The notes beneath the pieces are model-generated. The model worked only from the letters and a program-made list of their open reading frames with translations, was not told the origin of the DNA and made no database searches. This document shows positions 9,251-16,295 of a stretch of 16,320 nucleotides of DNA, piece by piece. The stretch's first letter is position 1. Each line of letters begins with the position of its first letter. Made by a program: the position numbers and the translations under genes. The stretch is from an uncultured Clostridia bacterium (GTDB lineage Bacteria > Bacillota > Clostridia > Lachnospirales > Lachnospiraceae): contig CAMORF010000013.1 of assembly GCA_946623485.1 (NCBI GenBank), positions 1 to 16,320 of the forward strand, written 5' to 3'.

Positions 9251-9300
9251 TGTGATTGATTTCTGAGCTGTGGGATTCGGATGAAAAGACAGGCAGGAGA
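9251..9300 (-). repeat. Partial copy A of the stop-codon-adjacent repeat
   Basis: Only one substitution separates 9251-9272 from 12265-12286, and after one indel the match continues to 9299 (aligned to about 12312) with two more differences. It holds the second half of the element (TGATTGATTTCTGAGCTGTG on +, then CGGATGAAAAGAC). The CTTGTACATC half is missing, and the truncated edge abuts the stop codon of the prepilin peptidase gene (9301-9303). Confidence 0.7.
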
Positions 9301-10199: not shown

Positions 10200-10275
10200 T
10201 AAAGCCTGTCATGGAATAACTTGTACATCTTGCCTGTCACTGCATCCGATGGAACAGATCAAAAATCAATCATAG
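10200..10275 (+). repeat. Near-full copy C of the stop-codon-adjacent repeat, inverted relative to nhaC
   Basis: Shares with copy B an exact 19-mer (10215-10233, AATAACTTGTACATCTTGC), CATCCGAT (10243-10250) and an exact 13-mer CAAAAATCAATCA (10260-10272), in the same order and close to the same spacing. The 5' end is more diverged (TAAAGCCTGT against TAAGGAGCTGT), so the closing stem is weaker. Its far end lies 2 nt from the nhaC stop codon (10277-10279), facing it. Confidence 0.75.
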
Positions 10276-10276
10276 A

Positions 10277-11923
10277 TCAGCCCTGCGCTTCAGCTTTGTC
10301 TGCTTTCCTGCCAAGCGTAATTGTAACACCGATCATAAGAACAATCGAAAGCGGCAGGGCAATGACAGCCGGAATGCGATTGACTGCGAAGATTCCGGCC
10401 AGCAGATAACCCAACGCGGAAACGAAGGCGCAGGTCAGGGCATAAGGCAGCTGTGTCGAAACATGATTGACATGGGAGCATTGCGCGCCAGCAGAGGACA
10501 TGATGGTGGTATCCGAGATCGGGCTGCAGTGATCTCCACAGACGGCACCGGCCATGCAGGCAGCGACACAGACGATGGAGATGGGATTGCCCGATGACCA
10601 CGGGAAAGCATTCAGGACGATCGGAATCAGGATTCCGAAGGTGCCCCAGCTGGTTCCGGTTGCAAAGCTCAGTACGCAGCCGATCAGGAAGATGACAGCG
10701 GGCAGGAACATCTGCAATCCTTTTGCGGAGCCCTCGATCAAGCCGGCGACATAGACATCCGCGCCGAGGAAGGACGTCATATTCTTCAAGGACCAGGCAA
10801 AAACCAGGATCATGATCGCAGGAACCATGGCTTTGAAGCCTTCCGGAACACAGGACATTGCTTCCTTGAAGGTGAAAGACCTGCGGGCAACATAATAGAT
10901 GATGGCGAAGAGAAGCCCGAACGCGGAACCTAACATCAATCCGATGGAAGCATCAGAATTCGAGAACGCCTCAATGAAATTCGCTCCGCTGAAGAAACCG
11001 CCGGTGTAGATCATACCGATGACGCAGCAGATAACAAGCACAATGATTGGGAGAACAAGGTCAATGACCCGGCCCTTCCCCTCCGGAACGTTATTCGCTT
11101 CATTTTCGTAGGGATTCGCGCCGGAAAAAATATCGCCCGCTTTCGCATTTTTCTCAAACTTCAGCATTGGGCCATAATCCAAGTTCTTAAGTGTAAGCGT
11201 AAGCATCATGGCGATGGTCAGAAGCGCATAGAGATTATAGGGGATTGTGCGGATAAAAAGCGCAAGGCCTGAACCATCATCGACAAAGCCGGAGACAGCC
11301 GCTGCCCAGGATGAGATGGGCGCAATGATGCAGACCGGCGCGGCCGTCGCATCGATCAGGTAGGCAAGCTTCGCCCTTGAAATCTTGTGCCGGTCCGTTA
11401 CAGGCCGCATGACTGAGCCGACAGTCAGGCAGTTGAAATAGTCATCGATGAAGATCAGGATCCCAAGCAGGATGGTGGAAAGCTGCGCGCCGCGGCGCGT
11501 TTTGATATGTGCCTCCGCCCATCGGCCAAATGCGGCAGAGCCTCCGGCCTTATTCATCAGGGAGACAATCGCGCCTAACATAATCAGGAACACCAGGATC
11601 CCAACGTTATAGGAATCTGAGACAGACGCGACGATTCCATTGGTGAAGACGTTGTTTAGTGTTTCCTCGAAATTCCAGTTTGCCGCAAAGCCGGCAGCTA
11701 CGATAATTCCGATGAGCAGCGAGGAATAAACTTCCTTTGTGATGAGAGCAAGGATGATTGCCACGAAGGACGGAATCAGCGCCCAGAACGTATTATAGAA
11801 GTGGGAGCTGGAGGCAATCTTTTCCGCCACGTCCTCCGCCATCACCGGCATAGCGAGGAACAGGGCGGCGAGAAGTCCCGCGGGCAGGATCCATGCCAGC
11901 CTGTTTTTTACTGAACGATTCAT
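10277..11923 (-). CDS. nhaC: NhaC-family Na+/H+ antiporter
   Basis: A 548-residue polytopic membrane protein of the NhaC/arsenite-permease-like superfamily, expected to expel Na+ (or exchange an organic acid) against protons. The N-terminus has a signal-like hydrophobic segment ending VMA-ED near residue 29. Many hydrophobic helices follow. The conserved FATGTSWGTFGILIPI segment lies near residue 425-440, close to a CGDHCSPISDTT-type motif that is typical of this family. The ATG at 11923 was chosen for the strong GGAGGAGG site ending 4 nt ahead; the frame upstream to 12016 is open only because it crosses a structured leader. The leader of about 175 nt carries structured RNA element copy 1, which may control expression. 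The true substrate is not certain. Confidence 0.87.
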   Translation of the reverse strand: MNRSVKNRLAWILPAGLLAALFLAMPVMAEDVAEKIASSSHFYNTFWALIPSFVAIILALITKEVYSSLLIGIIVAAGFAANWNFEETLNNVFTNGIVASVSDSYNVGILVFLIMLGAIVSLMNKAGGSAAFGRWAEAHIKTRRGAQLSTILLGILIFIDDYFNCLTVGSVMRPVTDRHKISRAKLAYLIDATAAPVCIIAPISSWAAAVSGFVDDGSGLALFIRTIPYNLYALLTIAMMLTLTLKNLDYGPMLKFEKNAKAGDIFSGANPYENEANNVPEGKGRVIDLVLPIIVLVICCVIGMIYTGGFFSGANFIEAFSNSDASIGLMLGSAFGLLFAIIYYVARRSFTFKEAMSCVPEGFKAMVPAIMILVFAWSLKNMTSFLGADVYVAGLIEGSAKGLQMFLPAVIFLIGCVLSFATGTSWGTFGILIPIVLNAFPWSSGNPISIVCVAACMAGAVCGDHCSPISDTTIMSSAGAQCSHVNHVSTQLPYALTCAFVSALGYLLAGIFAVNRIPAVIALPLSIVLMIGVTITLGRKADKAEAQG

Positions 11924-11940
11924 ACAACCTCCTCCTGTGA

Positions 11941-12053
11941 TCAATGCCTTTGGCGCCAGTTCCCTTGCTGGCGGCAAGCCCACCTTTCGCGGGCACACCT
12001 CCCCGAGGCCAGGCAAGGTCCGGTCCGCCTCCGTCTGGTGCAGATAGGAACCT
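11941..12053 (-). ncRNA. Conserved structured RNA element, copy 1 (nhaC leader)
   Basis: Read on -, the element holds: hairpin a (12048-12052 with 12022-12026, inner 12041-12044 with 12030-12033), the block GCCTGGCCTCG (12014-12004), hairpin b (11993-11989 with 11983-11979), hairpin c (11973-11968 with 11959-11954) and AAAGGCATTGA (11951-11941). It ends 4 nt before the antiporter's AGGAGGAGG site. Hairpins a and b use G-U pairs where copy 2 has mostly Watson-Crick pairs; read on the other strand these become A-C mismatches. I do not recognise it as a known riboswitch family. Placement suits a cis-regulator of nhaC, but a mobile or trans-acting RNA is also possible. Confidence 0.6.
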
Positions 12054-12066
12054 GCACTTTAATCAG

Positions 12067-12103: not shown

Positions 12104-12131
12104 ATTATCGCAAATTAACAGATAATGTCAA
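12104..12131 (-). promoter_or_regulatory. Sigma-A-type promoter of nhaC
   Basis: On -, consensus TTGACA (12131-12126), a 16-nt spacer and GATAAT (12109-12104). Start near 12097 predicts a ~175-nt leader that includes the structured RNA. It is the only strong promoter in the 414-nt gene-free stretch 11924-12337. Confidence 0.7.
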
Positions 12132-12263: not shown

Positions 12264-12340
12264 ATGTGATTGATTTTTGAGCTGTGCTATCGGATGAAAA
12301 GACAAGCAAGATGTACAAGTTATTTTGTAACAGCTCCTTA
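12264..12340 (-). repeat. Full copy B of the stop-codon-adjacent repeat
   Basis: Read on -, it starts with the gpsA stop codon: TAAGGAGCTGT (12340-12330), then AATAACTTGTACATCTTGC (12324-12306), CATCCGAT (12296-12289) and CAAAAATCAATCA (12279-12267). The ends of the core, GAGCTGT (12336-12330) and ACAGCTC (12285-12279), are perfectly complementary and enclose 44 nt, so the RNA can close on itself. Confidence 0.8.
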
Positions 12341-13354
12341 GGATTTGCGGTACTCCATCTCAGAGCGAGGCGCTCTTGTCATAAGGAAATGTACCGTCTT
12401 CTTCGGGTCTGCCCCGTGGTTGACCACCGCATCGACCGCGTTGACCAGGGGCATCTCGACCTTGTATTTTTTCTGCAGTTCAAGCGCGGCTGGGATGGCG
12501 TTGATTCCTTCCACTACCATTCCGATCTTTTTGATCGCGTCGGCAGGAGCCATTCCCTGGCCGATCAGATGCCCGCAGCGATTGTTCCGCGAGTGCTCTG
12601 AGGTCGCGGTCACAATCAGGTCGCCGATTCCGGCAAGCCCGGAAAATGTACCCGGATCACAGCCCATCGCGACGCCAAGGATGGTAATCTCATGCATTCC
12701 CCGTGTAATCAGTGCCGCTTTTGTATTGTCGCCGTATCCAAGCCCGAGGGCGACACCGCTGGCAAGAGCAATGATATTCTTCATCGCGCCGCAAAGCTCC
12801 ACTCCTGTGATGTCATCGTTCGTGTATACACGCATCACATCATTCATAAAGATGCGTTGTACGGCCAGGGCAGCTTCTTCCTTTTTGCTTGCCGCGACAA
12901 TTGTCGTGGGAAGATCCCGGGCAACCTCTTCTGCATGTGTGGGTCCGGAAAGCGCAACAAGGCGCGCTGATTTTCCAGCCTTCTCCAGCTCATCCGCGAT
13001 GACCCGGGTCAAGGTCATCAAGGTTCCGCTCTCGATCCCCTTGGCGGCATCTACGATCAGCTGCCCATCCGGAATAAAGGGCGTGGCAGCCGCCGCGGTG
13101 GAGCGCACAAAGACAGAAGGAACCACAAAAAGAAGCAGTTCCTTCCCGGTACAGACATCCTCGATGCTTGTGGTAAACTGAACCTCATCAGGAATCACCA
13201 TCCCCGGAAGGTTCGGCTGCCTGCGCGTGTTTTGATATGCTTCGATCTCCGCAGGTAACGCTGACCAGACGGTCACGCGGTGTCCGGTCAGAGAAAGCAT
13301 TCTTGTAAGCGCCATTCCCCATGTGCCGGCGCCAAGCACACCAATATCAGCCAT
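12338..13354 (-). CDS. gpsA: Glycerol-3-phosphate dehydrogenase [NAD(P)+]
   Basis: Reduces dihydroxyacetone phosphate to sn-glycerol-3-phosphate in the cytosol, the entry to phospholipid synthesis. The 338 residues match the family. The N-terminal Rossmann domain opens ADIGVLGAGTWGMAL (GxGxxG-type nucleotide loop). The catalytic lysine lies in GVELCGAMKNIIALASG, and the substrate-binding SEHSRNNRCG segment follows. The frame opens at 13378, but the ATG at 13354 places GAGGA 8 nt upstream and starts right at the Rossmann strand, so it is preferred. It follows the RsbW-like gene by 37 nt on the same strand and is probably the last gene of that unit. Its stop codon starts repeat copy B. Confidence 0.95.
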   Translation of the reverse strand: MADIGVLGAGTWGMALTRMLSLTGHRVTVWSALPAEIEAYQNTRRQPNLPGMVIPDEVQFTTSIEDVCTGKELLLFVVPSVFVRSTAAAATPFIPDGQLIVDAAKGIESGTLMTLTRVIADELEKAGKSARLVALSGPTHAEEVARDLPTTIVAASKKEEAALAVQRIFMNDVMRVYTNDDITGVELCGAMKNIIALASGVALGLGYGDNTKAALITRGMHEITILGVAMGCDPGTFSGLAGIGDLIVTATSEHSRNNRCGHLIGQGMAPADAIKKIGMVVEGINAIPAALELQKKYKVEMPLVNAVDAVVNHGADPKKTVHFLMTRAPRSEMEYRKS

Positions 13355-13391: not shown

Positions 13392-13859
13392 CTACCTCAG
13401 TTTTTTACAGATACTGACGTGATTCTTGCCATCTTTATATTCATAGTACATGTGATCCATACTCTTTTTGACCATAAAGATACCAAGGCCGCCGATCCTG
13501 CGTTCTTTTGCAGAGAGCGTCACATCCGGATCTTCTTTGCTCAGCGGATTGAAGGGAGTTCCTGCATCAGACATCGTAACACGCAACCATGTGCCATTCA
13601 TATCCTCCGGAGTCATCCCGTCACGGCAATCCTCAGGAATCGGGCATGTATCCAGGGTTTCAATGGTAATATCCGCATCACCGGTGTCCGGCGAATAAGC
13701 ATAATTTGCAATATTAACAAACAGTTCCTCAACTGCAATGTCGATCTGCATCCGGGTTTTCATGGGACACATCTCCGCGTCGAGCTGTTCATCTACCTGT
13801 TCCAGTACTTTAGAAAGATTGTCAATGACTGCAAGAATCTTCAGATTCGTTTTATACAT
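13392..13859 (-). CDS. RsbW/SpoIIAB-like ATP-binding protein (anti-sigma factor kinase)
   Basis: A 155-residue GHKL-fold protein. The N box is EELFVNIANYAY (about 44-55), the G1 box is DAGTPFNPL (about 98-106) and the G2 box is GGLGIFMVKK (about 122-131). Such proteins bind ATP, hold a sigma factor or other partner, and phosphorylate a STAS antagonist. The segment CPMKTRMQIDIAVEEL is typical of clostridial members. I take the ATG at 13859 (GTGAGG 9 nt ahead); the in-frame ATG at 13883 would use up that ribosome site and add 8 residues. The STAS gene lies 70 nt upstream and gpsA 37 nt downstream, both on the same strand. Its target is not in the window. Confidence 0.85.
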   Translation of the reverse strand: MYKTNLKILAVIDNLSKVLEQVDEQLDAEMCPMKTRMQIDIAVEELFVNIANYAYSPDTGDADITIETLDTCPIPEDCRDGMTPEDMNGTWLRVTMSDAGTPFNPLSKEDPDVTLSAKERRIGGLGIFMVKKSMDHMYYEYKDGKNHVSICKKLR

Positions 13860-13929
13860 TGAGCAGATCCTCACCTCCTCCATCTCTCACTTCATCCTCG
13901 CCTTGAACCAAGGCAGTGGAAAGAAGCCG

Positions 13930-14229
13930 TCACTCAATGGTAAGGATGTCAGAGAAGCCGGTAACCTCGAAGATCTCATTCACATCGTCTTTGACATGGA
14001 TCAGCTTCATACTGCCCTGCTTGGACATGATCTTCTGCGCCGTGAGCAGGACACGGAGTCCGGCAGATGAGATGTACTCAAGCTTTTCAAAATCGAAAAC
14101 AAGCTTGGTAATGGAATCAATGAAACTCTTCAGATCGCTTTCCAGTTCCGGCGCGGTTGTCGTATCGAGACGACCCTCAAGGCAGACAGTCGCTTCGCTT
14201 CCATTGATCTGTTTTTGAATATTCAGCAT
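13930..14229 (-). CDS. STAS-domain anti-sigma factor antagonist (RsbV/SpoIIAA-like)
   Basis: A 99-residue single STAS domain. The phospho-acceptor motif is EYISSAGLRVLL, with Ser55 in the position usually phosphorylated by the partner kinase (Ser54 adjacent). Length and pattern match RsbV-type switch proteins: unphosphorylated it would bind the RsbW-like kinase and release that kinase's target. Its mRNA has GGAGG 6 nt ahead of ATG 14229. It is the first gene of a unit with the ATPase and gpsA, served by a promoter at 14433-14462. Its leader of nearly 200 nt crosses the antisense of structured RNA element copy 2. Confidence 0.92.
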   Translation of the reverse strand: MLNIQKQINGSEATVCLEGRLDTTTAPELESDLKSFIDSITKLVFDFEKLEYISSAGLRVLLTAQKIMSKQGSMKLIHVKDDVNEIFEVTGFSDILTIE

Positions 14230-14298
14230 ACTAAACCTCCTTCAGACAGATATCATTCATCAAGATATCATTTCATATCATGCCGGCAGGAAAATCAT

Positions 14299-14411
14299 AG
14301 GTTCGCTTCCGCATGAGACGGAGACGAACCGTACCTCGCCTGGCCTCGAAAAGACTTCCCGCCGCAGGCGGGCTTATCGCCAGCTTCCTTTGCTGGCGGT
14401 AAAGGCATCGA
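14299..14411 (+). ncRNA. Conserved structured RNA element, copy 2 (antisense to the STAS leader)
   Basis: Hairpin a: GGTTCG (14300-14305) with CGAACC (14325-14330), inner TTCCG (14307-14311) with CGGAG (14319-14323). Then GCCTGGCCTCG (14338-14348), identical to copy 1. Hairpin b: CCCGCC (14358-14363) with GGCGGG (14367-14372). Hairpin c: CGCCAGC (14378-14384) with GCTGGCG (14392-14398). Then AAAGGCATCGA (14401-14411). A T-G pair in hairpin a supports the + strand as the folding strand. No + gene follows, so this copy is either an independent RNA, an antisense RNA or an inserted repeat. Outer CCGGC (14283-14287) and GCCGG (14418-14422) could extend the closing stem. Confidence 0.55.
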
Positions 14412-14432
14412 ATTACCGCCGGATCAATAGCT

Positions 14433-14462
14433 ATTATACAAAAAGAAGGATGCAAATGTCGA
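14433..14462 (-). promoter_or_regulatory. Promoter of the STAS-ATPase-gpsA unit
   Basis: On -, TCGACA (14462-14457), an 18-nt spacer and a perfect TATAAT (14438-14433). Start near 14426 gives a leader of nearly 200 nt. It suggests the switch genes can be transcribed separately from the phosphatase gene. Confidence 0.6.
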
Positions 14463-14486
14463 GTAAAATCAGCACAGGCTTGAGGA

Positions 14487-14576
14487 TTTTCCAGATGCAT
14501 TTTCCATCCGGCTTTCCATGCTGCTTTTCCATTCGGCTTTCCATGCTGCCTTTTCCATCCGGCTTTCCATGCTGCC
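14487..14576. repeat. Tandem 12-13-nt repeats (TTTTCCATCCGGC type)
   Basis: Three 25-26-nt units (14500-14524, 14525-14550, 14551-14576), each made of two related halves, TTTTCCATYCGGC and TTTCCATGCTGC(C), plus a degenerate half at 14487-14499: seven short units in all. They lie ~60 nt past the phosphatase stop codon, in the 404-nt gene-free stretch 14230-14633. Confidence 0.85.
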
Positions 14577-14633
14577 TTTTTCAGCTGCTTTCTCCTGATA
14601 TTCTTTCCGGCAGCTGTTCCGGTTCAGACGCTT

Positions 14634-16295
14634 TCACTCTGAAACGGGGCCATTATAGCGCAGCGCGAGCATCGTAATATCATCAAATTGCGGGACATCC
14701 CCGTCAAAGTCATCGACGGTGCGCAGCATGTAATGTACGAGCTCCCGCGGATCGGCATCCTGTTTTTTGTTCAGCGCCTCAATCATACGTTCCGTGCCGA
14801 ACTGCTCATTTTCTGCAGTCGTCGCTTCCGGCACGCCGTCGGTGTACAGGAAAAGGGTCTGTCCGGGATCCAGGTCGAATTCGTAATCCTGATACCGCAC
14901 GCCGCTCATGCCCCCAACGACAAGGCCGTGCTTGTCATGATACAGATCATATCTGCCGGTTTTGTCCTGCAGGACAGGGAATTCGTGCCCTGCATTGGAG
15001 GCGATGACATGGCCGGTAGACAATGTCAGGATCCCGAACCAGACTGTGACAAACATATTTTCATTATTATTGACGCAGATCCGGTCATTTGACTTCTGCA
15101 GGACCTCATGGGGAGGAATCCCCAGCTGGGCAAAATGACTGATGATGATTTTTGCCATCATCATGAACAGGGAGGCGGGAATTCCTTTTCCGGAGACGTC
15201 CGCCATGACAATTCCCAGATGGTCCTGGTCGATCAGGAAGAAATCGTAAAAATCTCCCGCGACCGACTTTGCCGGTTTCATCAGCGCATAGACATCGAAT
15301 TCCGTGCGGTCTGGAAATGGCGGGAAGGTGCTTGGCAGCATGCTTGCCTGGATCTTGTTGGCGATATTCAGCTCTGTCCCGATCCGCTCCTTTTCCTCCG
15401 TGACAGCGGTCAGATTCTCCGTATAGCGGATGATCCCAAGCTGCATGTTCCGGAAGCTGAGGTAGAGATCCTGGATTTCATCGTCCTGCCTCAGGGGAAC
15501 CTCGATGACCTGGCTTTGCAGCGCTGATTCTTCATCGCCTGTGCCAAAGGCGCCCGCTTTCATGGCCAGGTCGCGGATGGGATCCGAGATCACCTTCCTG
15601 ATGTAAATGCTCCCCATCATCGCGGTGACCACAAGAATCACAGCGCTTTGCAGGATCATGGTAAATGCAAAATCATGCCTTCTGTCCATGATGCCGTTCA
15701 TCCTGAAATCAGCGCCGACAATCGCAGGAGCCGTGCCGTCGGAAGCCACGACAGGCTCCGCGCAGGTACACAGCCAGCCGTGCTTCAGGCTGGTCACGGT
15801 AGCAGGCACACGGACATTTTCCGTAAGATCTCCAAACCGTTCCGCACTTTCTTCCCGCAGCCCAAGTGACAGGATGGATTCGCCGGGGTTCAGAAGATAC
15901 ATCGCGCCGGCTTCGCTCAGGTCCTGGACATACAGGGATTCCATATTGGTGCTGTCCAGAAGAATCGAAAGCGTCCGGGTATTCCTCGTATAATCCGCGT
16001 ACAGCCCTTCTTTTTTCAGGTAATCCTCCAGAAGCTCCGGGCTCCCTTCGGCAACCGCTTCTTCCCGCAGCTCCCGGAACTTTGGCGAGGAAACCGCTTC
16101 CCTGAGCTTCACAAGAAAATCCCCGTCCATCAGGGAAGCTGCCGTCCGGGAAAGCTTTGTCACCTGATCCTGATATAAGGAATCGACCTCACGGGTGTGC
16201 GCAAAATAGCTGGTTACCAGCAGCAGGAGGATAATGATACTGAAGAAGAGCAGGAGTACGGTGATCAGTCTCCGGCCAATACGGTTTTTATTCAT
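14634..16295 (-). CDS. Membrane-bound SpoIIE-type PP2C phosphatase with HAMP domain (RsbU/RsbP role)
   Basis: A 553-residue sensor phosphatase. TM1 is at about 10-32. An extracytoplasmic sensing region (about 33-208) of likely Cache/PAS-like fold follows, then TM2 (about 211-232), a HAMP linker (about 233-295, start SDPIRDLAMKAG) and a SpoIIE/PP2C catalytic domain (about 330-547). Metal-binding aspartates are visible in AGDFYDFF (Asp348), MADVSGKG (Asp366), LYTDGVPEA (Asp486) and FDDITML (Asp538/539). By family it dephosphorylates a STAS protein; the STAS and kinase genes directly downstream on the same strand make that the probable substrate. The ATG at 16295 has AAAGGA 8 nt upstream. After the stop, the same frame stays open for 54 more codons over tandem repeats. 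Confidence 0.93.
   Translation of the reverse strand: MNKNRIGRRLITVLLLFFSIIILLLLVTSYFAHTREVDSLYQDQVTKLSRTAASLMDGDFLVKLREAVSSPKFRELREEAVAEGSPELLEDYLKKEGLYADYTRNTRTLSILLDSTNMESLYVQDLSEAGAMYLLNPGESILSLGLREESAERFGDLTENVRVPATVTSLKHGWLCTCAEPVVASDGTAPAIVGADFRMNGIMDRRHDFAFTMILQSAVILVVTAMMGSIYIRKVISDPIRDLAMKAGAFGTGDEESALQSQVIEVPLRQDDEIQDLYLSFRNMQLGIIRYTENLTAVTEEKERIGTELNIANKIQASMLPSTFPPFPDRTEFDVYALMKPAKSVAGDFYDFFLIDQDHLGIVMADVSGKGIPASLFMMMAKIIISHFAQLGIPPHEVLQKSNDRICVNNNENMFVTVWFGILTLSTGHVIASNAGHEFPVLQDKTGRYDLYHDKHGLVVGGMSGVRYQDYEFDLDPGQTLFLYTDGVPEATTAENEQFGTERMIEALNKKQDADPRELVHYMLRTVDDFDGDVPQFDDITMLALRYNGPVSE

Follow-up and report, generated by a model that had tools for sequence, protein, structure and literature searches.

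Leaders of the Na+/Li+ riboswitch type exist at antiporter genes, and small structured repeats can be mistaken for riboswitches. In the sections of PMC3733652 that define them, REPs of the GTAG superfamily are palindromic units of 20-40 bp with a GTAG tag and a RAYT Y1 gene flanked by the repeat, and MITEs are elements of 70-300 nt with no coding capacity, terminal inverted repeats of 15-30 bp and a target-site duplication. REPINs appear in parts of the same source and of PMC3116915 as inverted REP doublets.

We analyzed a stretch of Lachnospiraceae DNA of 16,320 nt (the window), in which the initial annotation had proposed two diverged copies of a structured RNA, one of them forming the leader of the antiporter gene nhaC. 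We found that both stretches are partly decayed copies of one dispersed repeat of about 110 nt. Very probably, the repeat is mobile, interspersed and non-autonomous, is recognised as a folded single strand, and came to lie at nhaC by chance. Matches were scored with a covariance model built from 12 copies (R1) and with a second model that also takes in G159 (R2). G000 is the window's own genome, G018 and G007 belong to the same genus, G159 and G723 belong to other genera, and all are drafts. The features in the window are as follows.

10277..11923, minus strand: nhaC, Na+/H+ antiporter (PF03553, E 1e-53), a neighbour outside the element
12104..12131, minus strand: promoter-like site of nhaC, TTGACA-16-GATAAT (11/12 in a consensus scan), upstream of the copy 1 insertion
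11944..12055, minus strand: copy 1 of the repeat (R1 81.8 bits, E 1.4e-14 in its own genome; R2 72.1 bits)
12022..12052, minus strand: copy 1 hairpin H1, a 13-bp stem in intact copies, here imperfect (alignments A2, A4)
12012..12014, minus strand: 5' arm (GCC) of the closing helix in copy 1, with its partner GGC at 11946-11948
11997..12009, minus strand: copy 1 hairpin H2 (from the alignment)
11979..11993, minus strand: copy 1 hairpin H3 (from the alignment)
11949..11978, minus strand: copy 1 hairpin H4 (from the alignment)
14297..14408, plus strand: copy 2 of the repeat (R1 104.7 bits, E 1.5e-19; R2 101.3 bits)
14300..14330, plus strand: copy 2 hairpin H1 (from the alignment)
14338..14340, plus strand: 5' arm (GCC) of the closing helix in copy 2, with its partner GGC at 14404-14406
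14343..14355, plus strand: copy 2 hairpin H2, decayed, with 3 of 5 pairs remaining
14358..14372, plus strand: copy 2 hairpin H3, CCCGCC GCA GGCGGG
14373..14403, plus strand: copy 2 hairpin H4 (from the alignment)

As first proposed, copy 1 on the minus strand aligns over its full length (about 112 nt) with copy 2 on the plus strand. Identity over the first 50 nt is 80% with no gap, in agreement with the 10 differences and no gap counted earlier. With copy 1 as the query against its own genome, copy 2 was matched over positions 1-87 (E = 1.3e-7). The proposed homology stands, and the covariance model moves the proposed ends of both copies by 2-3 nt. Both copies accommodate the proposed hairpins, with 2 of the 5 H2 pairs missing from copy 2. 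The gap of 4 nt between copy 1, as first bounded at 11941, and AGGAGGAGG of nhaC also holds, and is 7 nt when counted from the model end. The true start of nhaC is most likely the ATG at 11923, behind AGGAGGAGG; a mechanical list of open reading frames has the gene begin earlier, at a TTG, and read across copy 1 (11924-12016, minus strand). Copy 2 precedes a STAS-domain gene, follows a SpoIIE-type phosphatase gene and is antisense to both, and the two window copies have opposite orientations relative to the gene that each precedes. The STAS protein, the phosphatase and an ATPase-like open reading frame, judged from sequence, likely form a partner-switching set (13392-16295). Just downstream of the phosphatase gene, an imperfect tandem repeat of 25-26 nt (GGCTTTCCATGCTGCCTTTTCCATCC) occupies 14484-14585.

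A second family of repeats, about 75 nt in length, is also present in the window, and its core, GGAGCTGTTACAAAATAA, presumably recalls the ends of IS6-type insertion sequences. Its two copies, at 12265-12341 (minus strand) and 10206-10272 (plus strand), are 84% alike over 67 nt, and partial copies lie at 9251-9298 and 2074-2103. Tracts related to this second repeat were seen near copies of the ~110-nt repeat on G000 C126, G159 C12 (L092) and G018 C35 (L059).

A BLAST search with copy 2 matched 2 of 19 genomes of the genus, with 17 matches in G000 and 10 in G018, and R1 matched 3 of the 19 at E<=0.1. Since the palindromic H1 is hit on both strands and such overlapping hits enter the counts at this loose threshold (41 in G000 and 32 in G018), we quote counts at E<=1e-6, which are 12 matches in G000 and 16 in the sister species G018. 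G007 had one R1 match (E 2.4e-6). Across 200 genomes of the family, R1 matched two, G000 and G159, the latter from another genus and with 18 matches at E<=0.001. R2 found four matching genomes among 397 of the family and four among 392 of the order, with the window's own genome counted in each, and G171, G349 and G591 gave single weak R2 hits (E 1e-5 to 7e-5). Because few candidates were scored per genome (18 in the 200-genome search and 9 in the 397- and 392-genome searches), diverged members will have escaped detection. A deeper R2 search at E<=0.001 found 35 matches in G723, 29 in G159, 3 in G171, 2 in G349 and 1 in G717. The 35 matches in G723 fall within 1.8 Mb, and some units there form head-to-tail arrays with a period of 111-112 nt. 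Truncated copies were also found, some lacking the 5' side and some the 3' side. The repeat is multi-copy, dispersed, patchy among relatives and partly tandem.

When the GTDB 220 contigs were scanned for exact patterns, six stretches were returned, all from CAMJIC01, an 'uncultured Clostridia bacterium' that is probably the G018 assembly. Phage or plasmid carriage was rejected with the queries used, as three exact patterns of the repeat had no match in viral contigs, and searches of plasmids with one copy and of phages with another had none either. In G159 (L079-L093), many copies are followed on their 3' side by a second shared repeat (GGAACACCCACTA...), which is inverted beside L085, and contigs C12, C43, C49 and C88 of this genome stop about 100 nt past the element.

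We scored the genomic context of 54 selected better matches from six genomes, counting tandem arrays once. Only 3 of the 54 places were inside open reading frames. As scored, the gene on the 3' side ran with the element in 34 cases, against it in 15, and was absent in 5. The caller of open reading frames was crude: it overlooked nhaC next to copy 1, and the two frames that it took beside copy 2 were spurious; with copy 2 corrected by hand, 33 of the 49 genes were on the same strand and 16 on the opposite one. The repeat thus occurs in both orientations relative to genes, although the scored majority (34 of 49) runs with the 3' gene. At seven places (five in G723 and two in G159), the upstream frame stops exactly 4 nt into the element, at the element's TAG or TAA, which fits insertion at gene ends. 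Of 20 downstream genes extracted, nearly all chosen as co-oriented with the element, 17 were put to Pfam. They belonged to varied families, among them acetate kinase, RNase H and EPSP synthase, and HMGL-like was found twice; they had no common function by Pfam, and none was an antiporter. In a coding test of 49 copies, 24 had no frame open throughout, and the best frame was open in at most 19. In its length of about 110 nt and its lack of coding capacity, the repeat matches a MITE.

Of 49 copies, 33 carry ATAG as their end tag and 3 carry GTAG, so the terminal GTAG of REPs is not a property of the family. Terminal inverted repeats were not found when the first 25 nt of the 49 copies were compared with the reverse complement of the last 25 (mean score 5.8 and highest 8, compared with a random mean of 4.6 and a 95th percentile of 7). 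In a check of target sites by eye in 40 copies, AT was often present at both ends and was shared by neighbouring units in tandems, and the 5' and 3' dinucleotides often differed.

These properties bear on a narrower form of the mobile-repeat explanation, in which the repeat is a REP/BIME-type element moved by a REP-associated tyrosine transposase (RAYT). We consider this form possible but doubtful. Three properties are in its favor: H1, which falls within the 20-40 bp of a REP unit, also occurs alone in G000 as a palindrome of about 31 nt (L031, L033, L034), the elements form mosaics and tandems, and intact Y1 transposases (PF01797) are encoded in G723, G717 and G349. However, conservation extends over a unit of about 110 nt that has three hairpins beyond H1, the tag is mostly ATAG, and no element was found near the three intact Y1 genes of these carriers. 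G159 has 29 matches yet no PF01797 hit; G018 and G171 had none either, an absence that is provisional in drafts (G159 is 94% complete and G018 68%). A flanking association with a RAYT or Y1 gene is therefore not supported, again provisionally for drafts. The tag, the distribution of PF01797 and the surroundings of the intact Y1 genes together weaken RAYT mobilisation. In G000 the Y1 gene is truncated (L047:1462-1767, on C198); about 350 nt downstream, at L047 2107-2140, a short stretch resembling H3-H4 was seen by eye, with no R2 report at E<=1.

We next consider the fold of the repeat. The family fold consists of hairpin H1 followed by H2, H3 and H4, which are enclosed by a 3-bp helix, giving a four-way junction and four hairpins in total. 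H1 has 13 bp and a loop that is mainly ATCAG or ATCAA. In an alignment of 12 copies, 92.8% of cells were paired and both sides had changed at 13 of 39 pairs; in an alignment of 22 copies from three genomes, the corresponding values were 93.4% and 21 of 39. This strong covariation bears out the structured family proposed by the initial annotation, and homologues free of covariation were not what we observed. Only 2 of 500 shuffles of the 22 copies reached 21 such pairs. The covariation score of the 22 copies (0.440) exceeded all 500 shuffles (mean 0.157) and the slid controls (<=0.181), with the caveat that kinship of copies can by itself beat shuffles. Individual copies gave mixed results: copy 1 did not fold clearly better than shuffled sequences (z -0.92), nor did the whole nhaC leader with copy 1 stand far out (z -1.19). 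Copy 2 did fold clearly better, with z -2.58 on its own strand and a stronger value, z -3.23, on the opposite strand. One pair of H2 is G-G in 9 of 13 G159 rows, which counts against the preferred explanation.

Comparison of the majority rows of G000 and G159 revealed agreement at 30 of 36 unpaired positions, 10 of 12 in H3 and 7 of 10 in H2, against 14 of 26 in the H1 stem and 12 of 24 in the H4 stem. Between G000 and G018 the order was reversed (29 of 36 unpaired positions and 26 of 26 in the H1 stem), so the better conservation of loops than stems is valid between genera and not within the genus. About half of the stem letters of H1 and H4 have been exchanged by compensation between genera, with loops and linkers mostly kept. 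The closing helix is mostly GCC/GGC in G000, G018 and G159 (22-copy alignment). In G723 it is GAC/GTT in 13 rows, AAC/GTT in 9, GAC/GTC in 5, with a sixth GAC/GTC row carrying an adjoining change, and AAC/GTC in none.

The initial annotation had also read a one-sided wobble pattern, G-U pairs on the RNA strand that become A-C mismatches on the opposite strand, as the signature of selection on an RNA. The family structure does not support this reading. Copy 1 has 27 Watson-Crick pairs, 5 G-U, 3 A-C and 4 other, and copy 2 has 32 Watson-Crick, 2 G-U and 5 A-C of 39 pairs. Across 38 matches from G000, G018, G007 and G159, we counted 37 G-U, 35 A-C and 53 other mismatch cells, and when distinct events were counted there were 17 G-U against 31 A-C. 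The near-equal counts suggest that old inserted copies decay about symmetrically. G723 had 30 G-U against 14 A-C cells, with 13 of the 30 G-U at the closing pair, where G-C, G-U and A-U are present and A-C is not. This junction helix hints that the fold of the plus strand may matter in spreading copies, perhaps from few events.

A second narrower form of the mobile-repeat explanation is a bacterial SINE-like retroelement, whose transcript would be copied by a reverse transcriptase in trans. The conserved fold of one strand, the closing pair of G723, which is never A-C, and several copies truncated at the 5' side all point in this direction. We nevertheless consider it unlikely, given that copies truncated at the 3' side occur too, that the closing pair has two A-C cells and no G-U in G159, and that G-U is not in overall excess in G000, G018, G007 and G159. 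As truncations of both sides are seen, neither a DNA route nor a reverse-transcription route is established for the repeat.

The complementarity of the arms could also have been kept by template switching in replication, with no selection on the fold. Compensation is indeed strongest within the simple hairpins H1 and H4. This explanation is improbable, because the stems of H1 and H4 have diverged more between genera than the loops and linkers have, and because the closing helix, with arms about 65 nt apart, varies in a paired way, though perhaps from few events. A structure-reading mobilising activity is suggested by the stems of two of the four hairpins being about half replaced by compensation between genera with loops, linkers and junction mostly kept.

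We then compared the nhaC leader among relatives. The nhaC protein was matched in 14 of 19 genomes of the genus, the window's own included. Sites resembling the promoter-like site at 12131-12104 were seen by eye in sister leaders, and together with that site upstream of the insertion they indicate that copy 1 should lie in the 5' UTR of nhaC. The element was present in none of the 10 sister-species leaders inspected, and R2 gave no match over four sister nhaC leader loci. G018 and G007, the closest relatives (87% protein identity), align with both sides of the copy 1 insertion and visibly have an empty site. The G018 leader reads gctgattaaagt and then tatgaattacaaggagg, and the window reads gctgattaaagt, the element and then tgatcacaggagg. 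The element is present elsewhere in G018 and absent at its nhaC. This comparison demonstrates one empty site, at nhaC. Around copy 2, G003 and G009 have different sequence next to the SpoIIE-type gene, and in G007 the contig stops at this place. The flanks of 19 G000 query sequences shared no neighbourhood with 15 G018 loci, the only matches being of 29-43 nt to repeats. In G003 the nhaC leader has another hairpin-rich stretch (GCCGCTCCGCCGACGGCGG) near the same place (L107), and the leader may therefore be a recurrent insertion target.

The element was also compared with known RNA families. At gathering scores, Rfam had no match in the whole window, and at E<=5 the region of the copies gave nothing but a snoRNA hit that was outside the copies and far below its gathering score. 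Rfam likewise had no match on the element at four loci with better-preserved copies, where looser limits again gave only low-scoring snoRNA hits away from it. The earlier impression that no known riboswitch is matched is thus confirmed, and a known RNA family was rejected.

Absence from the sister leaders makes a passenger element more likely than a built-in ion sensor, and control of nhaC by ions or pH finds no support in an element dispersed both ways beside unrelated genes. The proposal of a cis-acting, riboswitch-like leader controlling nhaC in response to Na+, Li+ or pH retains hardly any credibility. In its favor are the placement of copy 1, with the promoter-like site on one side and the ribosome site on the other, the covariation of the family fold and the 34 of 49 copies scored as co-oriented with the 3' gene. 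It is largely refuted by the empty sites, and an empty site together with the wobble count decides the matter here. It is also contradicted by the ten sister leaders that lack the element, by the mixed orientation, with copy 2 antisense to both neighbours in the same window, by 17 downstream genes with neither a common function nor an antiporter, by the lack of an overall wobble bias, with copy 1 non-Watson-Crick at 12 of 39 pairs, and by the absence of an Rfam match.

The mobile-repeat explanation would account for these observations as follows. A putative enzyme acting in trans would recognise the folded single strand of the repeat, as ssDNA or RNA, and would copy it into mostly intergenic sites. 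Inserted copies would not be maintained and would decay. Copy 1 would have reached the 5' UTR of nhaC fortuitously, and if it altered nhaC translation or mRNA stability, that would be a side effect. Counting against this explanation are the uneven orientation of the copies, the G-U excess in G723, the missing contrast between unpaired positions and the H1 stem within the genus, the lack of terminal inverted repeats and of a clear duplication, the single empty site that could be read, and the failure of the PF01797 searches to point to a mobilising enzyme. More tentatively, and with considerable doubt, the family could represent an undescribed class of Clostridia mobile elements, in which a folded strand with four hairpins, one four-way junction, conserved loops and changing stems is moved in trans by a putative enzyme that reads structure more than sequence, possibly via RNA like SINEs. 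Among the matches listed from the open-licence literature, no title pointed to such a family. As the repeat occurs patchily in several genera and has no terminal inverted repeats, GTAG tag or consistent RAYT, its mobiliser can be searched for, for example via G723.

Among known systems, the Na+/Li+ riboswitch-type leaders resemble the repeat in that copy 1 occupies the leader of an antiporter gene. They differ in that the repeat has no Rfam match, is not kept in sister species and lies beside unrelated genes. Because the tests for a GTAG tag, a RAYT link and MITE-type terminal repeats all failed, and those for the length and non-coding nature of MITEs passed, we file the repeat as a small non-autonomous interspersed repeat. 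Like REP, BIME and REPIN elements, as characterised in portions of PMC3733652 and PMC3116915, it is short, palindromic, mostly intergenic and multi-copy, forms mosaics and tandems, and has compensatory stem changes. Unlike REP and BIME elements, it is about 110 nt long, with four distinct hairpins, a closing helix and a tag that is mostly ATAG; unlike REPINs, it is no inverted REP doublet. With the MITEs bcr1, RUP, NEMIS, ERIC and YPAL, to the extent that these are covered in excerpts of PMC3733652, PMC2229807, PMC2267715 and PMC10969869, it shares a length within 70-300 nt, a non-coding nature, dispersal near genes, the ability to fold when transcribed and the absence of an enzyme of its own. 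It differs from bacterial MITEs in having no terminal inverted repeats or clear duplication, and in its internal multi-hairpin fold with conserved loops.
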